Origin: Clostridia bacterium
GTDB lineage: Bacteria; Bacillota; Clostridia; UBA1381
Reading direction: 5' to 3'
Assembly (NCBI GenBank): GCA_026418715.1
Contig: JAOAAV010000024.1
Span: forward strand, 1-48,332
Length of the DNA stretch: 48,332 nt
Translations under genes and position numbers: made by a program
The notes under the pieces: generated by a model
What the model was told of the DNA's origin: nothing
Seen by the model: the letters and a program-made list of their open reading frames with translations, nothing else
The model's database searches: none
Part shown: positions 2,738 through 26,777 of the stretch, in pieces
Numbering within the stretch: the stretch's first letter is position 1
Layout: each line of letters begins with the position of its first letter

Positions 2738-2896
2738 GATTTTTTCCTCCTTTGAACATTCTTAATACATTGATACAGTAATATTATGTGTGAAGGCTCA
2801 AAAATTAAACAAGTATTTTATGCAGCATATGTAAATAAAATACAAGATTTTTAAAAGAAACTTCATGCCTCATACATTTGAAAAAATTTACATTAA

Positions 2897-2914
2897 CTGT
2901 AATAAAACTGTAAT
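2897..2914 (+). promoter_or_regulatory. Direct repeat resembling a PHO box
   Basis: CTGTAAT at 2897-2903 and again at 2908-2914 repeat with an 11-bp period (N4 spacer of A). It ends 10 bp before the -35 of the DUF1015 promoter. The layout CTGTNAT-N4-CTGTNAT is that of PhoB-type binding sites. No phosphate gene is nearby, so this is a pattern only. Confidence 0.4.
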
Positions 2915-2924
2915 GAAAATGGTA

Positions 2925-2953
2925 TTGACTAACTTCAACAGATGTTATAAAAT
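2925..2953 (+). promoter_or_regulatory. Promoter of the DUF1015 gene
   Basis: TTGACT at 2925-2930 and TAAAAT at 2948-2953 with a 17-bp spacer, 40 bp before the start codon. Confidence 0.7.
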
Positions 2954-2993
2954 TCATACAAAGCGGCAGAGTGTTTTTGTTTTAGGAGGGAAT

Positions 2994-4304
2994 ATGGCTA
3001 ATATAATACCGTTTAAGGGGTATCGCTACAATAAAGAAAAAGTGGGAAATCTCGGTGCTGTTATGTCCCCGCCTTATGATTCAATATCAAAGGAGGAGCA
3101 AGCGGCTCTTTACAGTGTGCACGAAAATAATGTAGTAAGACTGGTTTTAGGCATGGAATATGAAAATGATACCGACAGCAACAATAAGTATACCCGTGCT
3201 GCAAATTATTTGAATGAATGGATAGCAAAAGATATTCTTGTCAGGGATAAAAAAGACGCAATTTATCTATATGAGCAAATAATTACAGTAAATGATACTC
3301 AATTTTCCAACAAAGGCTTTGTGGTGCTTCTGGAGCTTGAGGAATTTGAAAAAGGAGGCATTATGCCCTGCGAACAGGCTATCACCAGTTCAAAAATGGA
3401 TAGATTTAATCTCCTAAAGGCGACCCGTGCGAATATCAGTATGATAAATTGTATGTATGTGGAAACAGAGAAAGTGCTTGCAAACATGATTAACGAATTG
3501 TCCGAAGAGGAACCGGATATGGATTTTGTCACAGAGGAAGGTACAAGGCAGAGACTTTGGATGATTACATATGAGCCCACAATAGAGTTTATTAAGAAGA
3601 ATATGGCGGACAAACGCATTTTTATTACGGATGGTCAAAACAGGTATGAAACGTGCCTTGAGTATAAAAAGCAAATGATGGAACAAAATCCCAATCATAC
3701 AGGTAAAGAGCCTTACAACTACATTATGGCGCTTTTGATAAATGCTCATGCGGATGGGCTGGTTCAATTGCCGGTGCATCGTTTGGTATCATGTCCGCAA
3801 GGGTTTAAGGAGGACTATTTTGTATCCGGCGCACAGGATCACTTCAAGGTGGAAAAAATAATTGTTGATACCAATATTGAGGAATTGGTTGATACTATGA
3901 AAAAACAAATTGCTACGCCAAGGAAGGAAAATAGGATTGCGCTTTATTGCGGCGAGGATTATTTCTACAGACTTACCTTCACCGACAGGGAATATTTAAA
4001 AAATCTTATGCCGGACAAATCTGAAGCGTACCGCAGCTTGGATGTCACGGTTCTAAATGAGTTGCTTCTCAATGAATTGTTGCATATTGATGAAAGCAAT
4101 TATCATGAGTATGTTACATTTACCAAAAAGTCAGTGGAGGGCGTGAGGGCTGTTAAGGATAAAAAATACGATTGTATGTTCTTGATCAATCCCACAAAAC
4201 CGTATCAAATAAGCGAAGTTGCTATAGCTGGGGAGAAGATGCCTGAAAGATCCATTTGCATTTTCCCCAAACCTGCGACGGGAATTATTATAAATAAGCA
4301 TTAA
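2994..4304 (+). CDS. DUF1015 family protein
   Basis: 436 residues, the usual size for this family (COG4198). Family hallmarks are the N-terminal IIPFKGYRYN and VMSPPYDSISKEEQAALY, HENNVVRLVLG, and the middle stretch FITDGQNRYETCLEYK (usually DGHHRYET). In many relatives the last motif reads DGHHRYE; here the two His are replaced by Gln-Asn. The reaction is unknown; the gene often lies beside serine-biosynthesis genes in other bacteria, but not here. The start at 2994 follows AGGAGGG by about 5 bp; an upstream in-frame ATG at 2865 overlaps the promoter and is rejected. It is probably cytoplasmic and transcribed alone. Confidence 0.85.
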   Translation: MANIIPFKGYRYNKEKVGNLGAVMSPPYDSISKEEQAALYSVHENNVVRLVLGMEYENDTDSNNKYTRAANYLNEWIAKDILVRDKKDAIYLYEQIITVNDTQFSNKGFVVLLELEEFEKGGIMPCEQAITSSKMDRFNLLKATRANISMINCMYVETEKVLANMINELSEEEPDMDFVTEEGTRQRLWMITYEPTIEFIKKNMADKRIFITDGQNRYETCLEYKKQMMEQNPNHTGKEPYNYIMALLINAHADGLVQLPVHRLVSCPQGFKEDYFVSGAQDHFKVEKIIVDTNIEELVDTMKKQIATPRKENRIALYCGEDYFYRLTFTDREYLKNLMPDKSEAYRSLDVTVLNELLLNELLHIDESNYHEYVTFTKKSVEGVRAVKDKKYDCMFLINPTKPYQISEVAIAGEKMPERSICIFPKPATGIIINKH

Positions 4305-4366: not shown

Positions 4367-4406
4367 GCTTTAATTAAGAGACATTTTGAAAAAAGGGGAA
4401 TATAAC

Positions 4407-6590
4407 ATGGGCGTAAAATATGATGATGGACAACGTATTTTTCACCTGCAGGGGAAAGATACGAGCTACATATTTAAGGTGACTGAAGACGGATATCTTG
4501 TGCATATTTATTGGGGGAAAAAAATAAGAAGTTGCGACATATCCGATTTGATACACGTTCAATACAGAGTATTTTCAACAAGCACGGGAACGAGGGACAA
4601 TAATTTTTCACTTGACAATATAATGCAGGAATATCCGTCATATGGGAATACTGATTTGCGGCATCCGGCATATCAGGTTCAGCTTGAAAACGGGTCTACG
4701 ATTACAGATTTGCGTTATGTTTTCCATAAAATTTACCAAGGTAAGCCTAAACTTGAAGGATTGCCTGCAACGTATGCAGAAAGCGAGTCTTGTGTGGATA
4801 CCTTGGAAATAGAGCTTTATGATCAAGTTGCAAATTTGAAGGCGATACTTACCTATTCGGTTTTCAAAGACTATGATGTTTTGGTACGTTCAGTAAAATT
4901 TATAAATGAGGGCACACAAAAGTTAAAACTGCTATGTGCAATGAGTGTAAGTGTTGACTTTGATAACTCCAATTATGAGCTAATGCAGCTTTCAGGCTCA
5001 TGGGCAAGGGAAAGGTATATATACAAAAGGAAGCTTGTTTTTGGAATGCAGGGCGTTGAAAGCATAAGAGGGGCAAGCAGCCCCCAGCAAAATCCGTTTA
5101 TTGCGCTTTTGGGAGAAGGAGCGTCGGAGACATTTGGAGATGTTTACGGCTTTAATTTGGTATACAGCGGAAATTTTACTGCTCAGTGTGAAGTTGAGCA
5201 GTATGGCACCGCTAGAGTGCTAATGGGAATAAATCCTTTTGATTTTTCGTGGCTTTTAGAAGGTGGAGAAAGTTTTCAAACTCCTGAAGCGGTGATGGTG
5301 TATTCGGATAAAGGAATAGAGAAAATGTCTCAGTCATACCATAAATTCTATAAAAATCATTTGATACGGAAAAGGGAAGAACTTCCGCCTATTCTTATAA
5401 ATAATTGGGAGGCTACATATTTTGATTTTGACGATGAGAAAATTATCTCAATTGCGGAAGAAGCGTCAAAGCTTGGTATAGAGCTTTTTGTGCTTGACGA
5501 CGGATGGTTTGGAGAACGCAATGATGATACGAGTTCGCTGGGTGATTGGTTTGTCAATAGAAATAAGATTAAAGACGGGCTTGACGGACTTGCAAAGAGG
5601 ATAAACAGTTTTGGCATGAAATTTGGATTGTGGTTTGAGCCTGAGATGGTTTCTCCGAAAAGCAAGCTCTACAAGGAGCATCCCGATTGGTGCATACATG
5701 TCCCCGACAGACACAGATCACTTTCAAGACATCAGCTCATATTGGATTTAACCAACAAAGATGTATGCGACACTGTTGTTAAAATGCTGACAGACGTTTT
5801 ATCGTCTGCTCCAATCAGTTATGTTAAATGGGATATGAACAGACATATGACAGAAATAGGTTCATCATTTTTGCCTAAGGGAAGACAGCGTGAAACGGCG
5901 CATAGGTATATGCTGGGTCTTTATGATATTATGGAAAGGCTTACGTCAGCATTTCCCAAAGTGCTTTTTGAAGGCTGTTCAAGCGGTGGGGGGCGTTTTG
6001 ATCCGGGTATTTTGTATTATATGCCCCAAATATGGACAAGTGACAATACAGACAGTGTTGAACGCTTAAAAATCCAATACGGAACAAGCATTGTCTATCC
6101 TCCATCTTCAATGGGGTCTCATGTATCCGCTGTGCCTAATCATATTACGGGAAGAGTATCATCTTTAAAAATGCGTGGGGATGTCGCATCATCGGGGAAT
6201 TTAGGTTATGAGCTTGATGTGGGTATTCTTACGGATACTGAAAAAGATATTATTTGCAAACAGATTGATTTCTACAAAAATATCAGGCCGCTTGTTCTGT
6301 TTGGTGATTTTTACAGGCTTATAAGTCCGTTTGAGGGAAATGATGCAGCTTGGATGTTTGTATCTGAAGATAAAGATGAGGCAGTTGTATTTTATTTTGG
6401 GATTTTGTCTGTTCCTAATTCATCGGTAAAAAGACTCAAGCTTAGAGGTCTGGATGAAAATGCCGATTATGAATTGGTTGGGGGAAATGTGTGCTATGGA
6501 GGGGACAGACTGATGTATGCCGGAATAAATATAACAAATATTCGTGGTGATTTTTCAAGCTATGTAATGCAGTTTAAAAGGTGCCGATAA
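4407..6590 (+). CDS. Alpha-galactosidase, GH36
   Basis: 727 residues, the normal length for bacterial GH36 enzymes, which release alpha-1,6-linked galactose from raffinose-type sugars and galactomannan. The order is an N-terminal beta-sandwich (about 1-320), a catalytic barrel (about 325-650) and a C-terminal beta-domain. Seen motifs: LDDGWFG (363-369), FGLWFEPEMVSP, KWDMNRHMTE with the nucleophile Asp near 476, CSSGGGRFDPG, and WTSDNTDS with the acid/base Asp near 546. There is no signal peptide, so it acts in the cytoplasm on imported sugars. AAGGGGAA precedes ATG 4407; a TTG at 4386 lies upstream of that site and is less likely. It converges with the GH2 gene. Confidence 0.95.
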   Translation: MGVKYDDGQRIFHLQGKDTSYIFKVTEDGYLVHIYWGKKIRSCDISDLIHVQYRVFSTSTGTRDNNFSLDNIMQEYPSYGNTDLRHPAYQVQLENGSTITDLRYVFHKIYQGKPKLEGLPATYAESESCVDTLEIELYDQVANLKAILTYSVFKDYDVLVRSVKFINEGTQKLKLLCAMSVSVDFDNSNYELMQLSGSWARERYIYKRKLVFGMQGVESIRGASSPQQNPFIALLGEGASETFGDVYGFNLVYSGNFTAQCEVEQYGTARVLMGINPFDFSWLLEGGESFQTPEAVMVYSDKGIEKMSQSYHKFYKNHLIRKREELPPILINNWEATYFDFDDEKIISIAEEASKLGIELFVLDDGWFGERNDDTSSLGDWFVNRNKIKDGLDGLAKRINSFGMKFGLWFEPEMVSPKSKLYKEHPDWCIHVPDRHRSLSRHQLILDLTNKDVCDTVVKMLTDVLSSAPISYVKWDMNRHMTEIGSSFLPKGRQRETAHRYMLGLYDIMERLTSAFPKVLFEGCSSGGGRFDPGILYYMPQIWTSDNTDSVERLKIQYGTSIVYPPSSMGSHVSAVPNHITGRVSSLKMRGDVASSGNLGYELDVGILTDTEKDIICKQIDFYKNIRPLVLFGDFYRLISPFEGNDAAWMFVSEDKDEAVVFYFGILSVPNSSVKRLKLRGLDENADYELVGGNVCYGGDRLMYAGINITNIRGDFSSYVMQFKRCR

Positions 6591-6675: not shown

Positions 6676-9330
6676 TCAACGAAATAGGCTCTGTAGTTGA
6701 CTTAGGGATATGGTTTGCTTTGGATTGAAATTTTCGGAGTTAATATATTTTATAATGCTGTTTTTCAGCTGCCTCGTTTCAATAAATTCATCATTCAAAG
6801 AAAAGCTGCATACTAAAATATCCGCTTTTCCCACTCTTGCCTCAAATATATTTGACATTCTGGTATTGTCAAAGAAGTTGGGGACAAGCTCAATTATCGG
6901 CTCAAAGCTGTTCGGCAATTCGGAAATATCCATAGATACCGAGTTTTCCAATATATGATACCACTGAAAATTAGAGTGGCTTTGAGTTGGGAAATCCTCA
7001 AATAAAGGATGGGTATTTTTGCATATGAAGCCGCACGGATTAGACGACGGAAAATATGCGGGGCTCCAAAATACGGGGTAAAAGCAGCCATGAATGTTTT
7101 TCTTAAGAGATTTCTCGTCTGCAAAAACAGCAACTCTTCCACCGCTTTTAATCTTGTCTAAAACGGCGTTTGTCAGAGTGTTTTCAATCAGGACTTTGTT
7201 TTCTTGCTTTTCATATCCGGCAGGGTAGACAAAAATATCCCAACTATTTTTAATATTTGTATTTTTAATGGAAAGCACAGCTTTAATCATAGATGCTTTC
7301 TTGATAAAGCCAAGAGGGAAACTGATATTGTATTCCGACGTTTCTATGGAATATATAATTTCCCCATTGCTTACAAAATCAAGTACATAAATCGGATTTT
7401 TTACCTTTTCCTCTCCAAAATCGGCAAAAGCAAGCTGTGCGAAAAAGTTTTCCGTATTTTCATAGATACGCTTTGTCTTTAAAAGGGGAACCTGCGGCGA
7501 GCAAAATTCTCTAAACTCCTCGGGTGATATAATTTTTTTGCTTTCCCAGAAGGAGTTTAAAAGCCCGATAGTTGCGGTGCATTGCCCCGGATAATCGTGT
7601 ATTCCCAAAAGCTCAAAACCGCCCATATCATGCGTGCGAAGTGCCGCTTCGATATCTTCTTTATACAAAAGTGCCGCAAGCTTACCTGATGCAAAAACAA
7701 AATCACCTACTTTGTGGAGCAGGTTCTTTTTTTTCAGATCATTTGCGATAACTTCAAAGTTTACTGGAATAAGATTTCCAGTAAACTTTTCGATTTCTCT
7801 CACATCGGGATATACACAGTATTGTCCTACCTCGAATGATATGACTGGAACATCCTTCGCTTGGATGCCGTCGTCATATGCCAGGAAAGTGTCAAGAGGG
7901 AGCTTTTTGTGAAAGTACTGCGCACGTATCCCGTGTCCATCTGCACGGAAGGCGGAAAAATAATCGTCTGCCGGCGTAACACAACGGTCAAAATTTGAAG
8001 TGAGGGTGTATAGTCGGCGGCTGTCTAATGCCTTAAGTTTAGTAGTGATACTTTCTAAAAGCTCAAAATCTCCCAAAAGCTCATTTCCGTTGCTAAACAT
8101 ACAAAATGACGGGTGATTTCCGTAACACTTTGAAATCCTTTCCGCTTCTGCGGGATAATAACTGTGATGCGCCAAATCATCACCCGTTGCAAGCGAGCAT
8201 ACATCTAAATTAAGCCAAAGAGGCATTTCGGCAAGGACATAAATTCCGGTCAAATCCGCTGCCGCAAAAGCTGCATCCGGAGGACACCAAGAATGGAATC
8301 GGATATGATTTAAGCCATATTCTTTTAATGTACGGCAAACGTGAAGCCAAGAATCCAAATCTGTCGGCGGATAACCCGTTTTAGGATAAACACAGCAATC
8401 GAGTGTCCCCCTTAAAAATATTTTTTTGCCGTTTACATGAATTTCTCTGCCAACTGCCTTAATTTCACGCATACCGAAAATAACTGTCTTGCTTTCTCTG
8501 CAATCTTCACAAACAAGCTCTGCGTTAAGCTCATACAAATTGGGATGAAATTCATCCCAAAGCATGACATCATCTCCCATATCATATGTGAGCGTTACAA
8601 TTTGACGCTTGTGAAACAAGGTAACATTATACTCTTTTTTTTCAAGGGTGCTTGTGCCTTTGCAGTCTGCAACAGACAGGAAAACGGTTGCATTGTTTTT
8701 GCTGCTTGGTGTGGACAGCGGGGTGTTTATTGTCAGTTTAACTGTGATATTTTTTCTGTGTATGTCGGGAAAGACTTGAACATTGCTTATGTGGTACGCA
8801 TCATATGCACGAAGTTCTATTTTGCCTACTATTCCGTTCCATATAGACTGGGTATCGTCCGTATAGCCGCTTGCCATGGTGTCTATATTGTATAGATCAC
8901 GATTGTCTATTCGAACCGTCAGAGTATGTTTGCCGGTGGAGGCGTATGGGGTAAGGTCATAAATATGGGGAGTGGACAAAGAATCCTGTTGTCTGCCTAT
9001 TTTATTCTCATCCAGCCACACCTGCGAGAAAAACATGACTCTTTCCATGAAAAGCTCTATTTTTTTATTCATCCATTCTTTTGGAATTTCTATTTCTCGC
9101 TGATACCACATTACTCCGGTGTAAATATGATGCTGACGGAGAGAACGAACCGCATCCTTTGTCATGATATCATATCTTTCCGGTTCTGTGCCTACATTAT
9201 TCTCACAAGCACTTCCAGGCAATTTGAAATTGCTATTGTTTAGCTTTTTTTTGTAAAATGCCTGACTTTTTCCGATGTCGGTTTCATCGGTTTGATAATC
9301 CCAAAATCCGCTTAAAGAAATTGTTTGCAT
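6676..9330 (-). CDS. Glycoside hydrolase family 2 enzyme
   Basis: 884 residues. The order fits GH2: sugar-binding jelly-roll (about 1-180), immunoglobulin-like domain (about 180-290), TIM barrel (about 290-600), and a C-terminal part of about 280 residues that I do not recognise. The barrel holds KKIFLRGTLD, NHIRFHSWCPP, LAEMPLWLN, SNGNELLG with the acid/base Glu near 417, and VPVISFEVGQY with the likely nucleophile Glu near 500. Specificity (beta-galactosidase, glucuronidase or other) cannot be read. There is no signal peptide, so it is cytoplasmic. AAAGGAA precedes the ATG. It follows the DUF5107-TPR gene after 19 bp and is surely in the same operon. Confidence 0.88.
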   Translation of the reverse strand: MQTISLSGFWDYQTDETDIGKSQAFYKKKLNNSNFKLPGSACENNVGTEPERYDIMTKDAVRSLRQHHIYTGVMWYQREIEIPKEWMNKKIELFMERVMFFSQVWLDENKIGRQQDSLSTPHIYDLTPYASTGKHTLTVRIDNRDLYNIDTMASGYTDDTQSIWNGIVGKIELRAYDAYHISNVQVFPDIHRKNITVKLTINTPLSTPSSKNNATVFLSVADCKGTSTLEKKEYNVTLFHKRQIVTLTYDMGDDVMLWDEFHPNLYELNAELVCEDCRESKTVIFGMREIKAVGREIHVNGKKIFLRGTLDCCVYPKTGYPPTDLDSWLHVCRTLKEYGLNHIRFHSWCPPDAAFAAADLTGIYVLAEMPLWLNLDVCSLATGDDLAHHSYYPAEAERISKCYGNHPSFCMFSNGNELLGDFELLESITTKLKALDSRRLYTLTSNFDRCVTPADDYFSAFRADGHGIRAQYFHKKLPLDTFLAYDDGIQAKDVPVISFEVGQYCVYPDVREIEKFTGNLIPVNFEVIANDLKKKNLLHKVGDFVFASGKLAALLYKEDIEAALRTHDMGGFELLGIHDYPGQCTATIGLLNSFWESKKIISPEEFREFCSPQVPLLKTKRIYENTENFFAQLAFADFGEEKVKNPIYVLDFVSNGEIIYSIETSEYNISFPLGFIKKASMIKAVLSIKNTNIKNSWDIFVYPAGYEKQENKVLIENTLTNAVLDKIKSGGRVAVFADEKSLKKNIHGCFYPVFWSPAYFPSSNPCGFICKNTHPLFEDFPTQSHSNFQWYHILENSVSMDISELPNSFEPIIELVPNFFDNTRMSNIFEARVGKADILVCSFSLNDEFIETRQLKNSIIKYINSENFNPKQTISLSQLQSLFR

Positions 9331-9349: not shown

Positions 9350-12300
9350 TCAATAGTGAATTAAAAGATCCGTATACATTAATTTTAAATGAGTAAGTAT
9401 TCCTTGATGCGACAGATCCTTCTCCAATCCATTTGAAAACATCTTTTCACTTTCTTTTATTTTTCCGAGACCATAAAGCCCCAAACCCATCAGATAACAG
9501 CAATGGATATAATTTTTTTCCGTCAGATCCGTATCAAAAATAAGGAAATCAGGCAGTGATACCGCAAAGTAATCAATACTTACTTTATCATAAATATGCT
9601 GTTCGGCATAGTCCACAAGCTTATTGAATTTCCCTTTTGCGCTTTTTTCATCGCCAAGCTTTGCTGAAGATAGTGCCTGATAGAAAAACATTTCGGGGGG
9701 TTGGTCATTGTAGTACATGGCTGAACCGAGGTCGCTACCGCCGGCTGAAGCGCGCATAAAAGCATCCTTTGCGGCATCTTTGTTTCCAAGTCCTTCATAT
9801 GCGCAGCCTAAAAAGTAATAGATGTCATTTTCCTGAGCTCCGGCAAGCTTCCCTTCACCAAGATTGTAAGGATAAATCAACGCATTATTGAGCAAGGTTA
9901 TGCCGCGCTCATACTCCTTATTTAAAATTGCTTTCTTTGCAAGCTCAATATTTGCGGTCTTATACTGCGAGGTGATTTTCCCTTCACCGCCTTCCCATGG
10001 ATGGAATATGTGGGAATTCATTGCGGAAAGCGCTTTTTCATATTGACTTGTAAGGTTTAGCAGTGTGATGTATTCCGTATATAAATCATCTCTTGTTTTG
10101 ACAAGATTTTCATATCTTGAGAGCTGGTTTAAACGTTTCTCCACAGGAGTATTCATTCGTTTTAATAGCTGATCAAGTTCCAAAAGAATTCGGGCATCTG
10201 ACGGGGCACACTCAAAGGCTTTTGTCATGGATACAAGAGCTTTTTCGGCGTTATGTTCTTTGTTGAAATAAGCGAGTGCCAAATTCCTGTGAACAATGGA
10301 AAAAGCATCATCTAGGGAGCGTGAATTTTCCCAATATCGAATTGCCTCATGATGCTGCCCTTTATCGTATAAGAGGTTGCCAAGATAGTACATAGCTTTG
10401 GAATCAGACGGATTTTTTGATATCGCATATTTTAGCACAATGATATCCTCCAAGCGGTTGGGGAAACAATAATCTCCGCTGCATTTTGCTGCAGTTTCAA
10501 GTATATTGAGATTGTCTGATTGCTGATAGAAGGCGAGATAGTAATGCATCATAGGATCCGTGGTATTCGGAAGCAAGTTTAAAACATCTGCTGCATCATT
10601 GTACATTCCCGCTACGGCATAATTTAAAGAAAGTTCGATATAATTGTGCGTGTCGCCCCTCATTAGATTTGTCAGTTCGGACAAAATGTCTTCATCCTTG
10701 CTTATCGCATAAAGCTCATACATTGCACCAAAATCCAGAGGATCAATTGTGTTTGTTTCCTGTGCGTATCCTTTTGCTTCTTCAATTTTCCCTATTTTTC
10801 TCAAAACTGATGTTTTGAGATTTCTTGCTTTCAGGTTATGCACATTTCTTGATAATGATATATCAATAAAATTCAATGCCTGCAAGAGATCCCCTTTCCG
10901 TGCGGACAATGCGGCAAGCTGATAATATGCACCGTCCTGCTGGGCGCTGTTCCAAGCGGATTTGTAAAAGGCGTCAAAGCTTTCTTCATATCTGCCCTGC
11001 ATACGAAGCGCAAGACCGAGATTATAGTAAGGTTCTCCATCGTATGGATTGGGATTTTTCCAAGTTAGCTTTTTTATTGCTGTTCTAAAATGTGCCTCGC
11101 TTTTTTCAAACAATCCCTTTTTAAATAAAAGCTTGCCATAGCCGTTGTTTAATCTGATATCGGTTGGCTCACGCTTTAATCCTTCCAAATAGTACAGTTC
11201 GGGGTCGTAGGTTGCGTGATGATATTGTTCCAAATGTACAGCAGTAAGGAACAAATCTTCGCAGGATGAGATTTCCTCCGGAGCAAGAGCAGGTTTTGCA
11301 GGCTCGGGAATTTTTTCGATTGTCTTCTCAAGCGGGGTATAGGAAACCAGTATTTTCCCGTTTTCATCTATAACGGATACTGTTATATCTGTTTCTTTTT
11401 CGTCCGTTTCAAATTTTTCAAAAAAGCTTGTGTCGGGAGAAAGTTTTACGATTTTATTGACGTATGTCTGCCTTTTGCCTTTTACATTGATTTTAAGACT
11501 GTCATGTGATGAAGTAACATAAACGTGTACGGCCGCATTTTGATTTTCAAACTCCAGATTTACCATGGCGTCACGCGTAGCGTTTTTAACCGCTCCGATA
11601 TTCTTATAAGGCATGAAATACTGCACGAATCGCTTTTCTTCATAAGGCGCGATAAAAGAAAAGTCCGGCTGATTGTCGGTATATACGCCTGTCATAAGTT
11701 CAATATAAGGACCGTCCTCATCGGTCAAATTCCTGTCCCATGCTTTTCCAAAGTCGCCGCAGCCCCAAGTCCACTGCTTTTTGCCCGGTGATATGTGGTG
11801 ATCGGCAACGTGCAAAAGTCCCGCTTTTTTACCATAATCATAGTTGCCTATGAAATCAAAATCAGAGTGATATGCCATATAAGAGGTTGGCACAGGAATA
11901 TTTTTATACCTTGAAATATCTACACCAGCAGAGTAATCCATTTTGTAGTAAGTGCCGGTAGCTATTGGAAATCTTGATACGTCACGCTTACCGTGGTCCA
12001 TAACTGCATGAACGTCCGGCGGGAATATGGACTGAGTATCATCATTTACAGCCACGGCAGGATTTGCCCACCATAGAAATGTTTTTTCAAGATCGGTGGG
12101 ATTGTATAGCTGTCCTTTTATTTCAAGGTACGCTTTGCCTGGATAAAGCGTAAATCCTGCCATACCCTTGGTATGATACATTTTTTCTATTTCTCCAACC
12201 CAAACGGTTTTGCTTCCGTCTGAATTTTCGACAATTTTGTAATCGACGGGGTCAAAGGTGGACGGACGGTGGTGTTGAGGCCAATTAAATTCTATTCCAC

Positions 12301-12646
12301 CCGAAATCCATGGGCCCGCCAAGCCTACAAGCGCAGGTTTTATTACCCTGTTGTAATATACAAAATCATATCCGTTCGTTTTGTCGAGCGCACGCTGAAT
12401 ACGCCCGCCGATTTCGGGAAGAATCATAATTTGAAGATACTCATTTTCCAAAAATACGGCTTTATATATCTTATCTGTTTTTTCATTTGAGATAGCTTCA
12501 GTAACTGGATGGGGATATACTTTGCCCGAACTTCCTTGATATACGCGTTTTTCCAAAAACATCGGATTTTTATCTGCTTTTGCCGTTTCATAGGTGGGAA
12601 TTGTCACATCTTGTTCCCAAGCCTTTACGATATCGTTTTTACTCAT
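9350..12646 (-). CDS. DUF5107 domain protein with TPR repeats
   Basis: 1098 residues. The first ~400 form a DUF5107 region: it has YLQIMILPEIGGRIQRALDK, WISGGIEFNWPQHHRP, WWANPAVAVNDDTQ and HHISPGKKQWTWGCGDFG. The PEIGGRI strand and overall beta pattern resemble the galactose-mutarotase-like superfamily, so it may bind or act on sugar; this is inference. From about 470 on are many helical TPR-type repeats (for example GEPYYNLGLALRMQGRYEES and AMYYLGNLLYDKGQHHEAIR). There is no signal peptide. GGAGC lies 8 bp before ATG 12646. It is the first gene of the unit with GH2 and is divergent from an AraC regulator, which suggests induction by a plant glycan. Confidence 0.85.
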   Translation of the reverse strand: MSKNDIVKAWEQDVTIPTYETAKADKNPMFLEKRVYQGSSGKVYPHPVTEAISNEKTDKIYKAVFLENEYLQIMILPEIGGRIQRALDKTNGYDFVYYNRVIKPALVGLAGPWISGGIEFNWPQHHRPSTFDPVDYKIVENSDGSKTVWVGEIEKMYHTKGMAGFTLYPGKAYLEIKGQLYNPTDLEKTFLWWANPAVAVNDDTQSIFPPDVHAVMDHGKRDVSRFPIATGTYYKMDYSAGVDISRYKNIPVPTSYMAYHSDFDFIGNYDYGKKAGLLHVADHHISPGKKQWTWGCGDFGKAWDRNLTDEDGPYIELMTGVYTDNQPDFSFIAPYEEKRFVQYFMPYKNIGAVKNATRDAMVNLEFENQNAAVHVYVTSSHDSLKINVKGKRQTYVNKIVKLSPDTSFFEKFETDEKETDITVSVIDENGKILVSYTPLEKTIEKIPEPAKPALAPEEISSCEDLFLTAVHLEQYHHATYDPELYYLEGLKREPTDIRLNNGYGKLLFKKGLFEKSEAHFRTAIKKLTWKNPNPYDGEPYYNLGLALRMQGRYEESFDAFYKSAWNSAQQDGAYYQLAALSARKGDLLQALNFIDISLSRNVHNLKARNLKTSVLRKIGKIEEAKGYAQETNTIDPLDFGAMYELYAISKDEDILSELTNLMRGDTHNYIELSLNYAVAGMYNDAADVLNLLPNTTDPMMHYYLAFYQQSDNLNILETAAKCSGDYCFPNRLEDIIVLKYAISKNPSDSKAMYYLGNLLYDKGQHHEAIRYWENSRSLDDAFSIVHRNLALAYFNKEHNAEKALVSMTKAFECAPSDARILLELDQLLKRMNTPVEKRLNQLSRYENLVKTRDDLYTEYITLLNLTSQYEKALSAMNSHIFHPWEGGEGKITSQYKTANIELAKKAILNKEYERGITLLNNALIYPYNLGEGKLAGAQENDIYYFLGCAYEGLGNKDAAKDAFMRASAGGSDLGSAMYYNDQPPEMFFYQALSSAKLGDEKSAKGKFNKLVDYAEQHIYDKVSIDYFAVSLPDFLIFDTDLTEKNYIHCCYLMGLGLYGLGKIKESEKMFSNGLEKDLSHQGILTHLKLMYTDLLIHY

Positions 12647-12681
12647 AAAAATTGCTCCTTTTGAAAATGAATTCTTATAAA

Positions 12682-12792
12682 AATCACATTTGACCTTGAT
12701 AATCACATGATGGTATTATATAATGAATGTGTGTAAATTGCATTAGTGTGTCTTGCTGTTTCATTGATGAATATTGCTTATTTTAATGTGAT
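12682..12792. promoter_or_regulatory. ATCACAT repeats between AraC gene and DUF5107 operon
   Basis: AATCACAT occurs at 12682-12689 and 12701-12708 as a direct repeat with 19-bp period, and its inverse AATGTGAT occurs at 12785-12792. Direct repeats about two helical turns apart are typical AraC-family sites. They flank the araC -35/-10. Proposed operators for the divergent regulator. Confidence 0.4.
12696..12724 (+). promoter_or_regulatory. Promoter of the AraC regulator gene
   Basis: TTGATA at 12696-12701 and TATAAT at 12719-12724 with a 17-bp spacer. It implies a leader of about 170 nt. The -10 is inside the palindrome ATTATATAAT, so a -10 is also present on the minus strand. Confidence 0.65.
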
Positions 12793-12900
12793 ATATGCAC
12801 TAATTTTACAGTGTTTTTGTGAAAAATTCTTTGCTTGGGGGACCTTCTGAATAATTTGAAAATCAAGGGTTTCTTGGGACAACAAAGGAGCGGATTTTTT

Positions 12901-13734
12901 ATGAGGAATATAAAAAAGGGTGTAATGGAAGGGTCGGAAATTTACTTCCATACGCCGAGTGGACTTGAAAAATCAATGTTTTTATACCCTTTGAGCGTAG
13001 GGCATTTTTACTGCAATCACAGATACGAAACTTCAAGGATAGGACTTGATAATTATCTGATTATTTATATTAAAAACGGTAAAGGACTTCTAATTTATGA
13101 AGGAAAAACAACATATGTAAAAAAGGGCGAGATAATTTTTATCAACTGTAATCGTCCGCATACATATAAATCAGATCCTGATTGGGAGTCCGTGTGGATG
13201 CATTTTAATGGAACCGGCGCGAAGCAGTACTATGACATTATTGAAGAAAAAATGGGAAACGTCAGTTATGTAGGGGAGGGAATGATCTATCAGGTTCTTA
13301 TGTCCATCTTAAAAACATTTAGGGATAACGAACCGATGAATGAAGCTATAATGTCATGCTATATACAGAGGATTTTAGCTGAGTTGTATCAAAATACCTG
13401 CAATGCAAAGCGCAATTCCGGAATTCTTTTTGATGTGCTGCAGTACATACAGGAAAATTATAATAAAAATATTTCATTGGATGATCTGTGCAATCTCGTT
13501 CATCTGAGCCCATATTATTTTTGTAGGATGTTTAAAAAAGAAATGGGTTATGCACCGTACGAGTACATTATAGTGGTAAGAATAAATATGGCAAAAAGAC
13601 TGCTGAAAAAAACAAATAAAACAATTAAGGAGATTGCTTTTGAAACAGGGTTTAACAGCGAGGCAAATTTTATAAGAACGTTTAAGGTATATACCAACAT
13701 GACTCCGGGGATATTTAAAAAGACGGACTTTTAA
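12901..13734 (+). CDS. AraC family transcriptional regulator
   Basis: 277 residues. An N-terminal cupin-like sensing domain (about 1-160; includes KGEIIFINCNRPHTYKSD) is followed by two helix-turn-helix motifs at about 175-277: ISLDDLCNLVHLSPYYFCRM and IKEIAFETGFNSEANFIRTF, then the closing MTPGIFKK. Such regulators sense a sugar and activate nearby operons. It is divergent from the DUF5107-GH2 operon, its probable target. AAAGGAG lies about 10 bp before ATG 12901; an in-frame GTG further upstream lacks such a site. Confidence 0.9.
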   Translation: MRNIKKGVMEGSEIYFHTPSGLEKSMFLYPLSVGHFYCNHRYETSRIGLDNYLIIYIKNGKGLLIYEGKTTYVKKGEIIFINCNRPHTYKSDPDWESVWMHFNGTGAKQYYDIIEEKMGNVSYVGEGMIYQVLMSILKTFRDNEPMNEAIMSCYIQRILAELYQNTCNAKRNSGILFDVLQYIQENYNKNISLDDLCNLVHLSPYYFCRMFKKEMGYAPYEYIIVVRINMAKRLLKKTNKTIKEIAFETGFNSEANFIRTFKVYTNMTPGIFKKTDF

Positions 13735-21763: not shown

Positions 21764-22777
21764 CTACAATGTTTTTTGAATTGTTATAGCGTGTGCAATT
21801 GACGGGATGGATTCACCCTGCTGAATAATTGTGGTATTCATCAGTGCGCCTGTTGCAACCACCAATATTTTATTGAGTTCTCCGCTTTGCAGCTTTTCAA
21901 AAATCGGTCCGCACAATACCGCTCCGCAACAGCCGCAGCCGCTGCCGCCAGAGTGGACGTCCTGTTTTTCTATATCAAATATCATTTTTCCGCAGTCGTT
22001 ATGTTTTGAAGCTATGTCAAATTGAGTTTTCGCCATAGATTCTAAAAGTATTTTAGAACCAATTACGCCTAAATCGCCAGTTAAAATTAAATCATAAAAA
22101 GAAGGGGAAAGTCCTGTGTCCTCAAAATGCGTTGTTATGGTCTCAAAAGCGGCAGGGGCCATCGCCGCTCCCATGTTGTTTGTGTCAGTTATGCCCATAT
22201 CCACGATTTTTCCCGTAGTAATATGTGTTATAAACGGACCGTTGCCTTGTTTTGCCAAAACGGCGCACCCAGCACCTGTTACCGTCCATTGTGCTGATGG
22301 GGGACGCTGTCCCCCGTATTCAAGCGGAACGCGAAACTGCCTTTCTGCAGAACAAAAATGGCTTGAAGTCACACTCATAACGTAATCGGCATAGTCTCCG
22401 TCAAGGAGCATTGCGCCGATTGACATACTTTCAACCATTGTAGAGCAAGCTCCGTACAACCCCAAAAACGGAATTTCCAAATCTCGAAGTCCGTAATGTG
22501 TACCTACGCATTGATTAAGCAAATCTCCCGCAAGAATATAATTTATCTGACTTGGAGAAAGTGAAGCTTTTTCCAAAGCCGCACGTGCGGTTTCTTTTTG
22601 AAGTTTGCTTTCGGCTTTTTCCCAGGTTTTTTCACCGTAGTAGTCATCTTCTAAAACAGTGTCAAAACTTTGTGCAAGGGGCCCGCTGCCTTCCTTTTGC
22701 CCCACTGTGGTTGAAGTTGCAAGTATGGTGGGCGGATTTTGCAAATAAACAGTTTGTTTGCCAAGTCTTTTACTCAT
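21764..22777 (-). CDS. spoVAD: Stage V sporulation protein AD
   Basis: 337 residues, typical length. It has a thiolase-like fold and binds dipicolinic acid as the soluble part of the SpoVA complex. Seen: the YLQNPPTILATSTTVGQKEG opening, GSGPLAQSFD, FLGLYGACSTMVESM (thiolase-type Cys), and HSGGSGCGCCGAV near the end. The ATG at 22777 is preferred to a TTG at 22801; the Shine-Dalgarno is weak for both. It is followed by spoVAE and preceded by the SLH gene with a 39-bp gap, where spoVAC would normally be. Confidence 0.93.
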   Translation of the reverse strand: MSKRLGKQTVYLQNPPTILATSTTVGQKEGSGPLAQSFDTVLEDDYYGEKTWEKAESKLQKETARAALEKASLSPSQINYILAGDLLNQCVGTHYGLRDLEIPFLGLYGACSTMVESMSIGAMLLDGDYADYVMSVTSSHFCSAERQFRVPLEYGGQRPPSAQWTVTGAGCAVLAKQGNGPFITHITTGKIVDMGITDTNNMGAAMAPAAFETITTHFEDTGLSPSFYDLILTGDLGVIGSKILLESMAKTQFDIASKHNDCGKMIFDIEKQDVHSGGSGCGCCGAVLCGPIFEKLQSGELNKILVVATGALMNTTIIQQGESIPSIAHAITIQKTL

Positions 22778-22816
22778 GTTTTCACGTCCAATCCGTAACA
22801 AAAATATGGATATTTT

Positions 22817-25423: not shown

Positions 25424-26692
25424 CTATTCAGCCAATTCATATATTTTGTCAATCATATTTTCCGCAAAGATGCCGTATCCTTTCAAAGGGTCGTTTACAA
25501 ATACATGAGTTACGGCTCCGACGAGCATATCATTTTGTATAATAGGACACCCGCTCATGCCTTGCACAATGCCGCCTGTTTTCTCTATCAAATCACGATC
25601 TGTTACCTTAAATATAATACCTTTGTTATTTTGTGTGGCGTCTCGTGCAATTTTTTGAATTTCAACGGAATATGCCTTAACACCCGCCCCGTCCGTATCG
25701 GCTAAAATATAGGCGCTGCCTTCATTTATCTGAAAGCGCGTAGCTACTTCTATTTCGGGCTTTCCTGAAAAATATTCGGTATCTTCCACCGAACCGTAAA
25801 TTCCAAGGGGAGTATTAAGCTGTATTTTTCCAATATCTTTATTCGTAAAGCTGCCTATTAATTCTCCGGGACTGCCCTTTTGTCCCTTAGTTACTGATAC
25901 TATATTGCATGAAATGATACTGCCTTTTAATACCTTTAAAACGTCACCGGTATCTACGTCTGTTATTGCATGACCCAATGATGCAAATTTTTTTGTTTCC
26001 GGGTCATAAAAGGTCATGGTTCCCACTCCTGCGGCAGTATCCCGCACCCAAATGCCTAATTTATAGCTGTGGTCATTCTTGCTTCGCACAGCCTTTATTT
26101 TTATTTCCGAAATGGTGTTGTCACGTTCTACCGACAAAGTCAAATTGCCGTTTGAAGCGTTAATACGCTCAGACATTTCCTCAATTGAGGAAATTTTTAC
26201 ACCGTTTATGGAAATAATCCTGTCACCTTCCTTTAATCCTGCTTCTTTTGCAGGAAAAACATTTTCCCCGTTTTGTGCTGTGACATATGATATGCCGACA
26301 ACCAAAATTCCGTCCGTATAAAGCTTTACGCCTATCGGCTCTCCGCTTGCTACCACATAATGCTTGGGAGTTACGACAACATTAATTTTTTTTAAAGGAA
26401 TTGCGTCAAAAAGCTTTAAGGAGAGAACGTAATTTCCTATATTGTTTGCATTTATATTTGTATTTTTCCCCAGGCTTGTTATGAATCCTTGGGAAATATT
26501 AGAGGTCTCTGCCAAAATCTTATCTTGTGAAGATTTTAGCGTTGTGAACGGCTGCAATCTATAGGTGTAGCTTCCGCCGCAAGCAAGAGTTATTTGTGCA
26601 GGGATACTGCAATACAGGTGTAATATCGCAATAATTGGCGATAATATAACAAGAGAGCATACGATTTTCGTCAATTTTTTCTTATGCGACAC
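25424..26692 (-). CDS. spoIVB: SpoIVB serine peptidase
   Basis: 422 residues. An N-terminal membrane segment (VCSLVILSPIIAILHLYCSI), a PDZ domain near 110-205 (EAGLKEGDRIISINGVKI) and a C-terminal peptidase domain are seen. Catalytic residues appear kept: His near 241 (SLGHAITDVDTG), Asp near 365 (KVTDRDLIEKTGG) and Ser near 380 (IVQGMSGCPII, usually GMSGSP). SpoIVB is secreted by the forespore and triggers sigma-K activation. The start is GTG at 26692, 6 bp after AGGGTG; a GTG at 26701 is the alternative. Confidence 0.95.
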   Translation of the reverse strand: MSHKKKLTKIVCSLVILSPIIAILHLYCSIPAQITLACGGSYTYRLQPFTTLKSSQDKILAETSNISQGFITSLGKNTNINANNIGNYVLSLKLFDAIPLKKINVVVTPKHYVVASGEPIGVKLYTDGILVVGISYVTAQNGENVFPAKEAGLKEGDRIISINGVKISSIEEMSERINASNGNLTLSVERDNTISEIKIKAVRSKNDHSYKLGIWVRDTAAGVGTMTFYDPETKKFASLGHAITDVDTGDVLKVLKGSIISCNIVSVTKGQKGSPGELIGSFTNKDIGKIQLNTPLGIYGSVEDTEYFSGKPEIEVATRFQINEGSAYILADTDGAGVKAYSVEIQKIARDATQNNKGIIFKVTDRDLIEKTGGIVQGMSGCPIIQNDMLVGAVTHVFVNDPLKGYGIFAENMIDKIYELAE

Positions 26693-26777
26693 ATAAAACA
26701 CCCTAACATGAAGTTATTAAGCGGTATTATTTATTGGACATTTTTGTAAAATTACCGATTTTGTTCGTTCAAATATA

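Follow-up and report, generated by a model that had tools for sequence, protein, structure and literature searches.

A DUF5107-TPR protein encoded beside galactosidase-type genes in a Clostridia bacterium as a candidate sugar-active member of the mutarotase superfamily

The window, a stretch of 48,332 nucleotides from a Clostridia bacterium, encodes a protein in which a DUF5107 domain with a galactose-mutarotase-like fold and a predicted invariant polar pocket is joined to a long TPR superhelix. The role of this protein is more likely catalytic than merely structural, and the chances are about even that it is a cytosolic, galactose-related protein of the mutarotase superfamily, converting or binding a sugar in a pocket closed by the TPR part. 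A more specific proposal, which is tentative, is that it represents an undescribed class of mutarotase-superfamily enzymes, cytosolic and acting on galactose or a derivative, in which a Glu/Asn/His pocket is completed by the TPR part. If true, TPR repeats would have the unusual task of helping to form an active site, and Escherichia coli YphG would gain a function. Besides yphG, an orphan gene of E. coli K-12, the same DUF5107 family takes in at least 587 relatives found in a scan of species genomes. In the literature on DUF5107, PF17128, 5CD6 and yphG, within a coverage that leaves out most subscription journals, no activity, ligand or function was found.

Gene, domain architecture and predicted fold

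The gene (Table 1) begins with an ATG, with a Shine-Dalgarno sequence (AAGGAG) at 12655-12660. The open reading frame described in an earlier note made from the sequence alone is present on the minus strand and supported by Pfam, and the motifs quoted there (PEIGGRI, WPQHHRP and HHISPGKKQWTWGCGDFG) are all found in its translation. The match to DUF5107 (PF17128) scores 211.5 bits against a curated cut-off of 24.4 and spans positions 5-309 of the 310 in the model, which places the protein in the family, and multiple TPR matches are found at about residues 499-966. The protein also has the YphG-type long form, defined as one chain of 1050-1150 aa, as the DUF5107 domain, a second beta domain and about 600 aa of TPR repeats lie in a single chain that can be aligned end to end.

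Table 1. Positions of the gene, its domains, selected residues and its neighbours in the window
Feature	Position	Strand	Basis
DUF5107-TPR gene, 1098 aa, E. coli YphG homologue	9350..12646	-	ORF, Pfam, alignment
DUF5107 domain, residues 42-346, galactose-mutarotase-like fold	11609..12523	-	Pfam (E = 1.9e-62); fold search
His126 (QHHRP), aligns with mutarotase DHGE/LHG histidine region	12269..12271	-	conserved in 129/130
Asn195 (WWANPAV), at mutarotase general-acid His position	12062..12064	-	conserved in 127/130
Glu316 (PYIELMTG), candidate equivalent of mutarotase catalytic Glu	11699..11701	-	conserved in 130/130; motif and order
Second beta domain, residues 360-436, poorly conserved	11339..11569	-	model secondary structure; conservation
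TPR superhelix, residues about 456-1090 (about 630 residues)	9377..11281	-	Pfam, predicted structure
HPWEGGEGK motif, residues 882-890, strongly conserved in TPR part	9977..10003	-	homologue alignment
YPYNLGEGK motif, residues 925-933, second copy-like conserved TPR motif	9848..9874	-	homologue alignment
GH2 gene, 884 aa, no signal peptide, 3' of DUF5107-TPR gene	6676..9330	-	Pfam, NCBIfam
GH36 alpha-galactosidase-type gene, convergent with GH2, beyond GH2	4386..6590	+	Pfam
AraC-family regulator, 299 aa, divergent	12835..13734	+	Pfam AraC_binding and HTH_18
Divergent intergenic region, 188 bp, presumed control region	12647..12834	.	gene positions

Both features of the immediate context that had been pointed out earlier, a short gap to the GH2 gene and a facing AraC gene, are seen. 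The gap is exactly 19 bp and contains the ribosome-binding site of the GH2 gene, and a terminator scan listed no site within it; spacing by itself would suggest that the two genes are co-transcribed. The nearest NCBIfam model for the GH2 protein is of the exo-beta-1,4-galactosidase BT4151 type, at 787 bits and thus under the cut-off of 1500. In the divergent intergenic region, a promoter scan gave promoter-like matches at chance level overall. A DUF1015-family gene (2865-4304) lies just past the GH36 gene. The host is probably a spore-forming lineage of Clostridia, since genes for SpoVAD (21764-22801) and a SpoIVB peptidase (25424-26701) are present in the window and the nearest named relatives are Clostridia MAGs.

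Fold was computed from AlphaFold models built with an alignment of 80 homologues, giving a mean pLDDT of 89.2 and a pTM of 0.87 for the full-length protein and a pLDDT of 75.9 for residues 1-460 alone. When the N-terminal model was compared with the PDB using Foldseek, the top match was 5cd6 (E 1.8e-22), followed by Bacillus subtilis GalM (3mwx, E 4e-12; 4bze, E 2e-11), with YeaD, E. coli YphB (3nre) and Lactococcus lactis GalM (1ns0) also found, all with a probability of 1.00; 1ns0 and 1ns2 are E304 mutants of GalM with galactose bound. The galactose-mutarotase-like fold anticipated from sequence motifs is therefore supported by structure prediction and fold search. The fold is not new to DUF5107, as 5cd6 is itself a solved DUF5107 protein deposited as a structural-genomics entry. 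In a profile search against PDB sequences 5cd6 was the sole real match, and matches to FGFR (E 0.3-0.8) were dismissed as noise. None of the GH families in Pfam or NCBIfam matches the DUF5107-TPR protein.

A conserved pocket and its possible closure by the TPR part

Conservation among 80 long-form homologues is concentrated in residues 1-350, where 37% of positions are at least 98% conserved, compared with 3% in residues 351-455 and 9-13% in the TPR blocks (the range outside residues 1-350 being 0-13%). More than half of the protein is TPR, as would suit a plain TPR scaffold that carries a degenerate mutarotase domain, but this explanation is very improbable because no other part of the protein comes close to the mutarotase domain in conservation. 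In 130 sequences (118 long and 12 short forms), Glu67, Glu119, Trp193, Asp243, Lys290, Trp294 and Trp303 are near-invariant in addition to the three residues of Table 1, and the alignment thus supports an invariant polar pocket in the DUF5107 domain; the objection which the earlier note had foreseen, a fold unlike the mutarotase superfamily and lacking a conserved polar pocket, does not apply. The putative pocket would consist of Glu119, His126, Asn195, Asp243, Lys290, Trp294 and Glu316, and may bind a hexose, with galactose or a small galactose-containing sugar as the likeliest ligand. For this assignment of the pocket, as for the identity of the sugar, the docking of the TPR part and catalysis itself, we infer from the computed features.

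In GalM, a glutamate acts as base and a histidine as acid. When DUF5107 was aligned by HMM directly to GalM or DUF4432 proper, no score was significant, and only an intermediate worked, a cluster of DUF4432-like proteins (C20) that aligns with residues 61-215 of the DUF5107 protein in hhalign (probability 97%, E 5e-11) and in turn with the profile of E. coli YphB (probability 71%, E 3.8e-5). Through this chain Asn195 (WWANPAV) sits at the conserved mutarotase histidine (WAAHPLF, GTGWHPYF), so that the position of the general-acid His of the TNHxYF/WHPYF motif, by which GalM is recognised, is Asn in DUF5107. Glu316 (YIELMTG...PDF) fits the catalytic Glu in motif and position, with no significant score in the C-terminal half of the HMM alignment, and its equivalence to that residue is put forward as a proposal; in such a pocket Glu316 could serve as acid/base.

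These residues bear on whether the protein might be an ordinary galactose mutarotase that feeds alpha-galactose to galactokinase. The mutarotase fold, in which the Glu and one of the His residues seem to be retained, would suit such a role, as would mutarotation in the context of a beta-galactosidase. However, the acid His is replaced by a near-invariant Asn, the window's own genome encodes a canonical GalM at another place, and 9 loci, as well as the yph cluster of E. coli, have an aldose epimerase gene close to the DUF5107 gene. The separate GalM and the aldose epimerases beside DUF5107 argue against simple redundancy, and the ordinary mutarotase is quite unlikely. Galactokinase is near-universal in the family, and most relatives have it with or without DUF5107, so its presence is uninformative.

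The TPR part may contribute to the same site. In the model of the domain alone, the pocket loops at residues 219-254 and 284-297 have block-mean pLDDT values of about 33-60, which rise to about 75-90 in the full-length model, suggesting that the TPR superhelix closes over the DUF5107 pocket. Both TPR motifs of Table 1 are retained in most long forms, and a superhelix bearing HPWEGGEGK and NLGEGK could act as a lid on the pocket.

Gene neighbourhoods and cellular location

The best 80 of the relatives come from Bacillota and Bacteroidota, with a few from Chloroflexota and Ignavibacteria. Gene order was counted in loci where two or more genes flank the DUF5107 gene on each side, comprising 29 family relatives, 38 named Bacillota and 20 Bacteroidota. 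Position -1 is taken by a divergent AraC gene in 24 of the 38 named Bacillota and 12 of the 29 family relatives, and position +1 by GH2 or GH35 in 10/38 and 15/29, respectively. In Bacteroidota, 18 of the 20 loci have a Sugar_tr transporter (XylE-type MFS, 36-42% identical to XylE) within two genes, and in 7/38 named Bacillota a ribose-type ABC importer is found no more than five genes away. Among downstream operon mates GH35 (12/69) and GH2 (up to 11/69) are the most frequent, alongside GH36, GH31, sulfatase and aldose epimerase, while those upstream are led by Sugar_tr (21/60) and include GH95 and GH53. Neighbours are hence not random, a possibility that had been left to a genome survey, as AraC, GH2/GH35/GH36 and sugar transporter genes turn up repeatedly in both Bacillota and Bacteroidota. 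A family genome holds so few such genes (5-30 AraC, usually 1-10 and up to 16 GH2, 0-3 GH35) that chance explains this poorly, with the reservation that the relatives are not independent. The galactose link is a tendency and not a rule, because no GH2, GH35 or GH36 gene was detected within five genes in 40-60% of loci.

Arabinose isomerase was found in 17/29 long-form-positive family genomes versus 3/20 others, a difference that is suggestive although genome size confounds it, and L-arabinose was rejected as a required substrate since the isomerase is absent from several near-complete DUF5107-positive genomes. Two long-form copies, located in different neighbourhoods, are present in many relatives (G008, G011, G014, G022, G023, G025, G026, G029, G030, G033, G038, G043, G045, G046 and G048), which hints at different substrates. 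Short-form DUF5107 genes (about 650-710 aa; L068-L076) adjoin AraC genes, in several cases together with GH1/GH123-like genes and not galactosidases.

The regulators raise the main rival, in which the protein is a non-catalytic sensor or adaptor whose DUF5107 domain binds a sugar while the TPR part signals to a partner such as AraC or a transporter. TPR parts usually mediate protein contacts, AraC is adjacent in about half of the loci, and the acid His of mutarotases is lost. Yet the regulator varies, being of the NagC type in E. coli, many loci lack AraC within five genes, and conservation sits in the pocket domain rather than in the TPR part. A sensor or adaptor is accordingly regarded as doubtful, and a sugar-converting or sugar-binding protein is preferred.

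Location speaks to whether the DUF5107 domain might itself cut oligosaccharides as a glycoside hydrolase or lyase. Some loci contain GH2, GH35, GH36, GH53 and GH95 genes, and the fold class includes catalytic GH domains, such as that of OpgD of GH186. When N-termini were put through a simple hydropathy test, however, no signal peptide was seen in any of the eight DUF5107-TPR proteins inspected from three phyla, whereas the GH2, GH35 and GH36 partners in Bacteroidota carry one; in Bacillota, including the window, nearly all partner proteins appear cytosolic. The importer that adjoins the gene in Bacteroidota is of the monosaccharide XylE type, and no GH gene lies beside yphG in E. coli. A hydrolase or lyase is thus unlikely. 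The Bacteroidota arrangement would place the inner membrane between the DUF5107-TPR protein and the polysaccharide, pointing to a role on imported sugar rather than on the glycan. Together with the absence of a signal peptide, the export of the Bacteroidota hydrolases and the adjoining XylE-type importer, this makes the cytosol the most likely site of action, to judge by N-terminal sequences. The earlier idea of a catalytic or sugar-binding role in glycan breakdown can be kept in its first part, as a sugar-active reading is favoured, but breakdown itself fits poorly with these observations. The protein probably does not cleave glycans, nor is it likely to be a textbook mutarotase.

The favoured sugar-active protein would then work after or beside the GH2, GH35 and GH36 galactosidases under a sugar-responsive regulator, converting free or imported sugar. 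The gene order shared across phyla and the invariant pocket narrow the candidates to a short list, namely galactose and the products of GH2, GH35 and GH36 as sugars and E316, N195 and H126 as residues.

Comparison with known systems

The window gene is a typical representative of a large family that has been named but not characterised and that includes a solved relative. E. coli YphG (b2549) has the same length and architecture, with 40% identity over 1064 aa along the full length, rising to 63% in residues 1-350 and falling to 26-32% elsewhere. The yph cluster is associated with sugar transport and includes yphB (aldose epimerase), yphC (dehydrogenase) and yphDEF (ABC sugar importer), but differs from the window in that an ABC transporter, a dehydrogenase and the NagC-type regulator yphH take the place of GH2 and AraC. 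YphF is among several proteins raised on levoglucosan (PMC8753852), and yphF was included in a screen of UPEC transporter mutants (PMC11032443).

The solved relative 5cd6, BDI_1685 of Parabacteroides distasonis, shares the DUF5107 fold (E 1e-22 to 1e-28) and keeps the core residues, but is a short form of 580 aa, from which the HHISPGKK histidines and the long TPR part are missing. GalM (Aldose_epim, PF01263) has the fold in common with DUF5107, at an identity of about 12%, and Glu316 is a candidate for the counterpart of its catalytic Glu. Proteins of the C20 cluster are 312-332 aa long, have no TPR part and retain the His where DUF5107 has Asn195. DUF4432-like genes adjoin DUF5107-TPR genes in five loci (L088:13365-14303, L100:13448-14398, L104:13418-14377, L105:9977-10975 and L108:6118-7098), and proteins of 316-333 aa, two of them near a long form (G568, G533), also score weakly with PF17128. 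The small DUF4432-like neighbours could be related to DUF5107 or act with it in a pathway. To what was available for this family, the present analysis adds the examination of the pocket, the His-to-Asn difference from mutarotases, an apparently cytosolic site in contrast to the exported partner GHs, and a connection with YphG.
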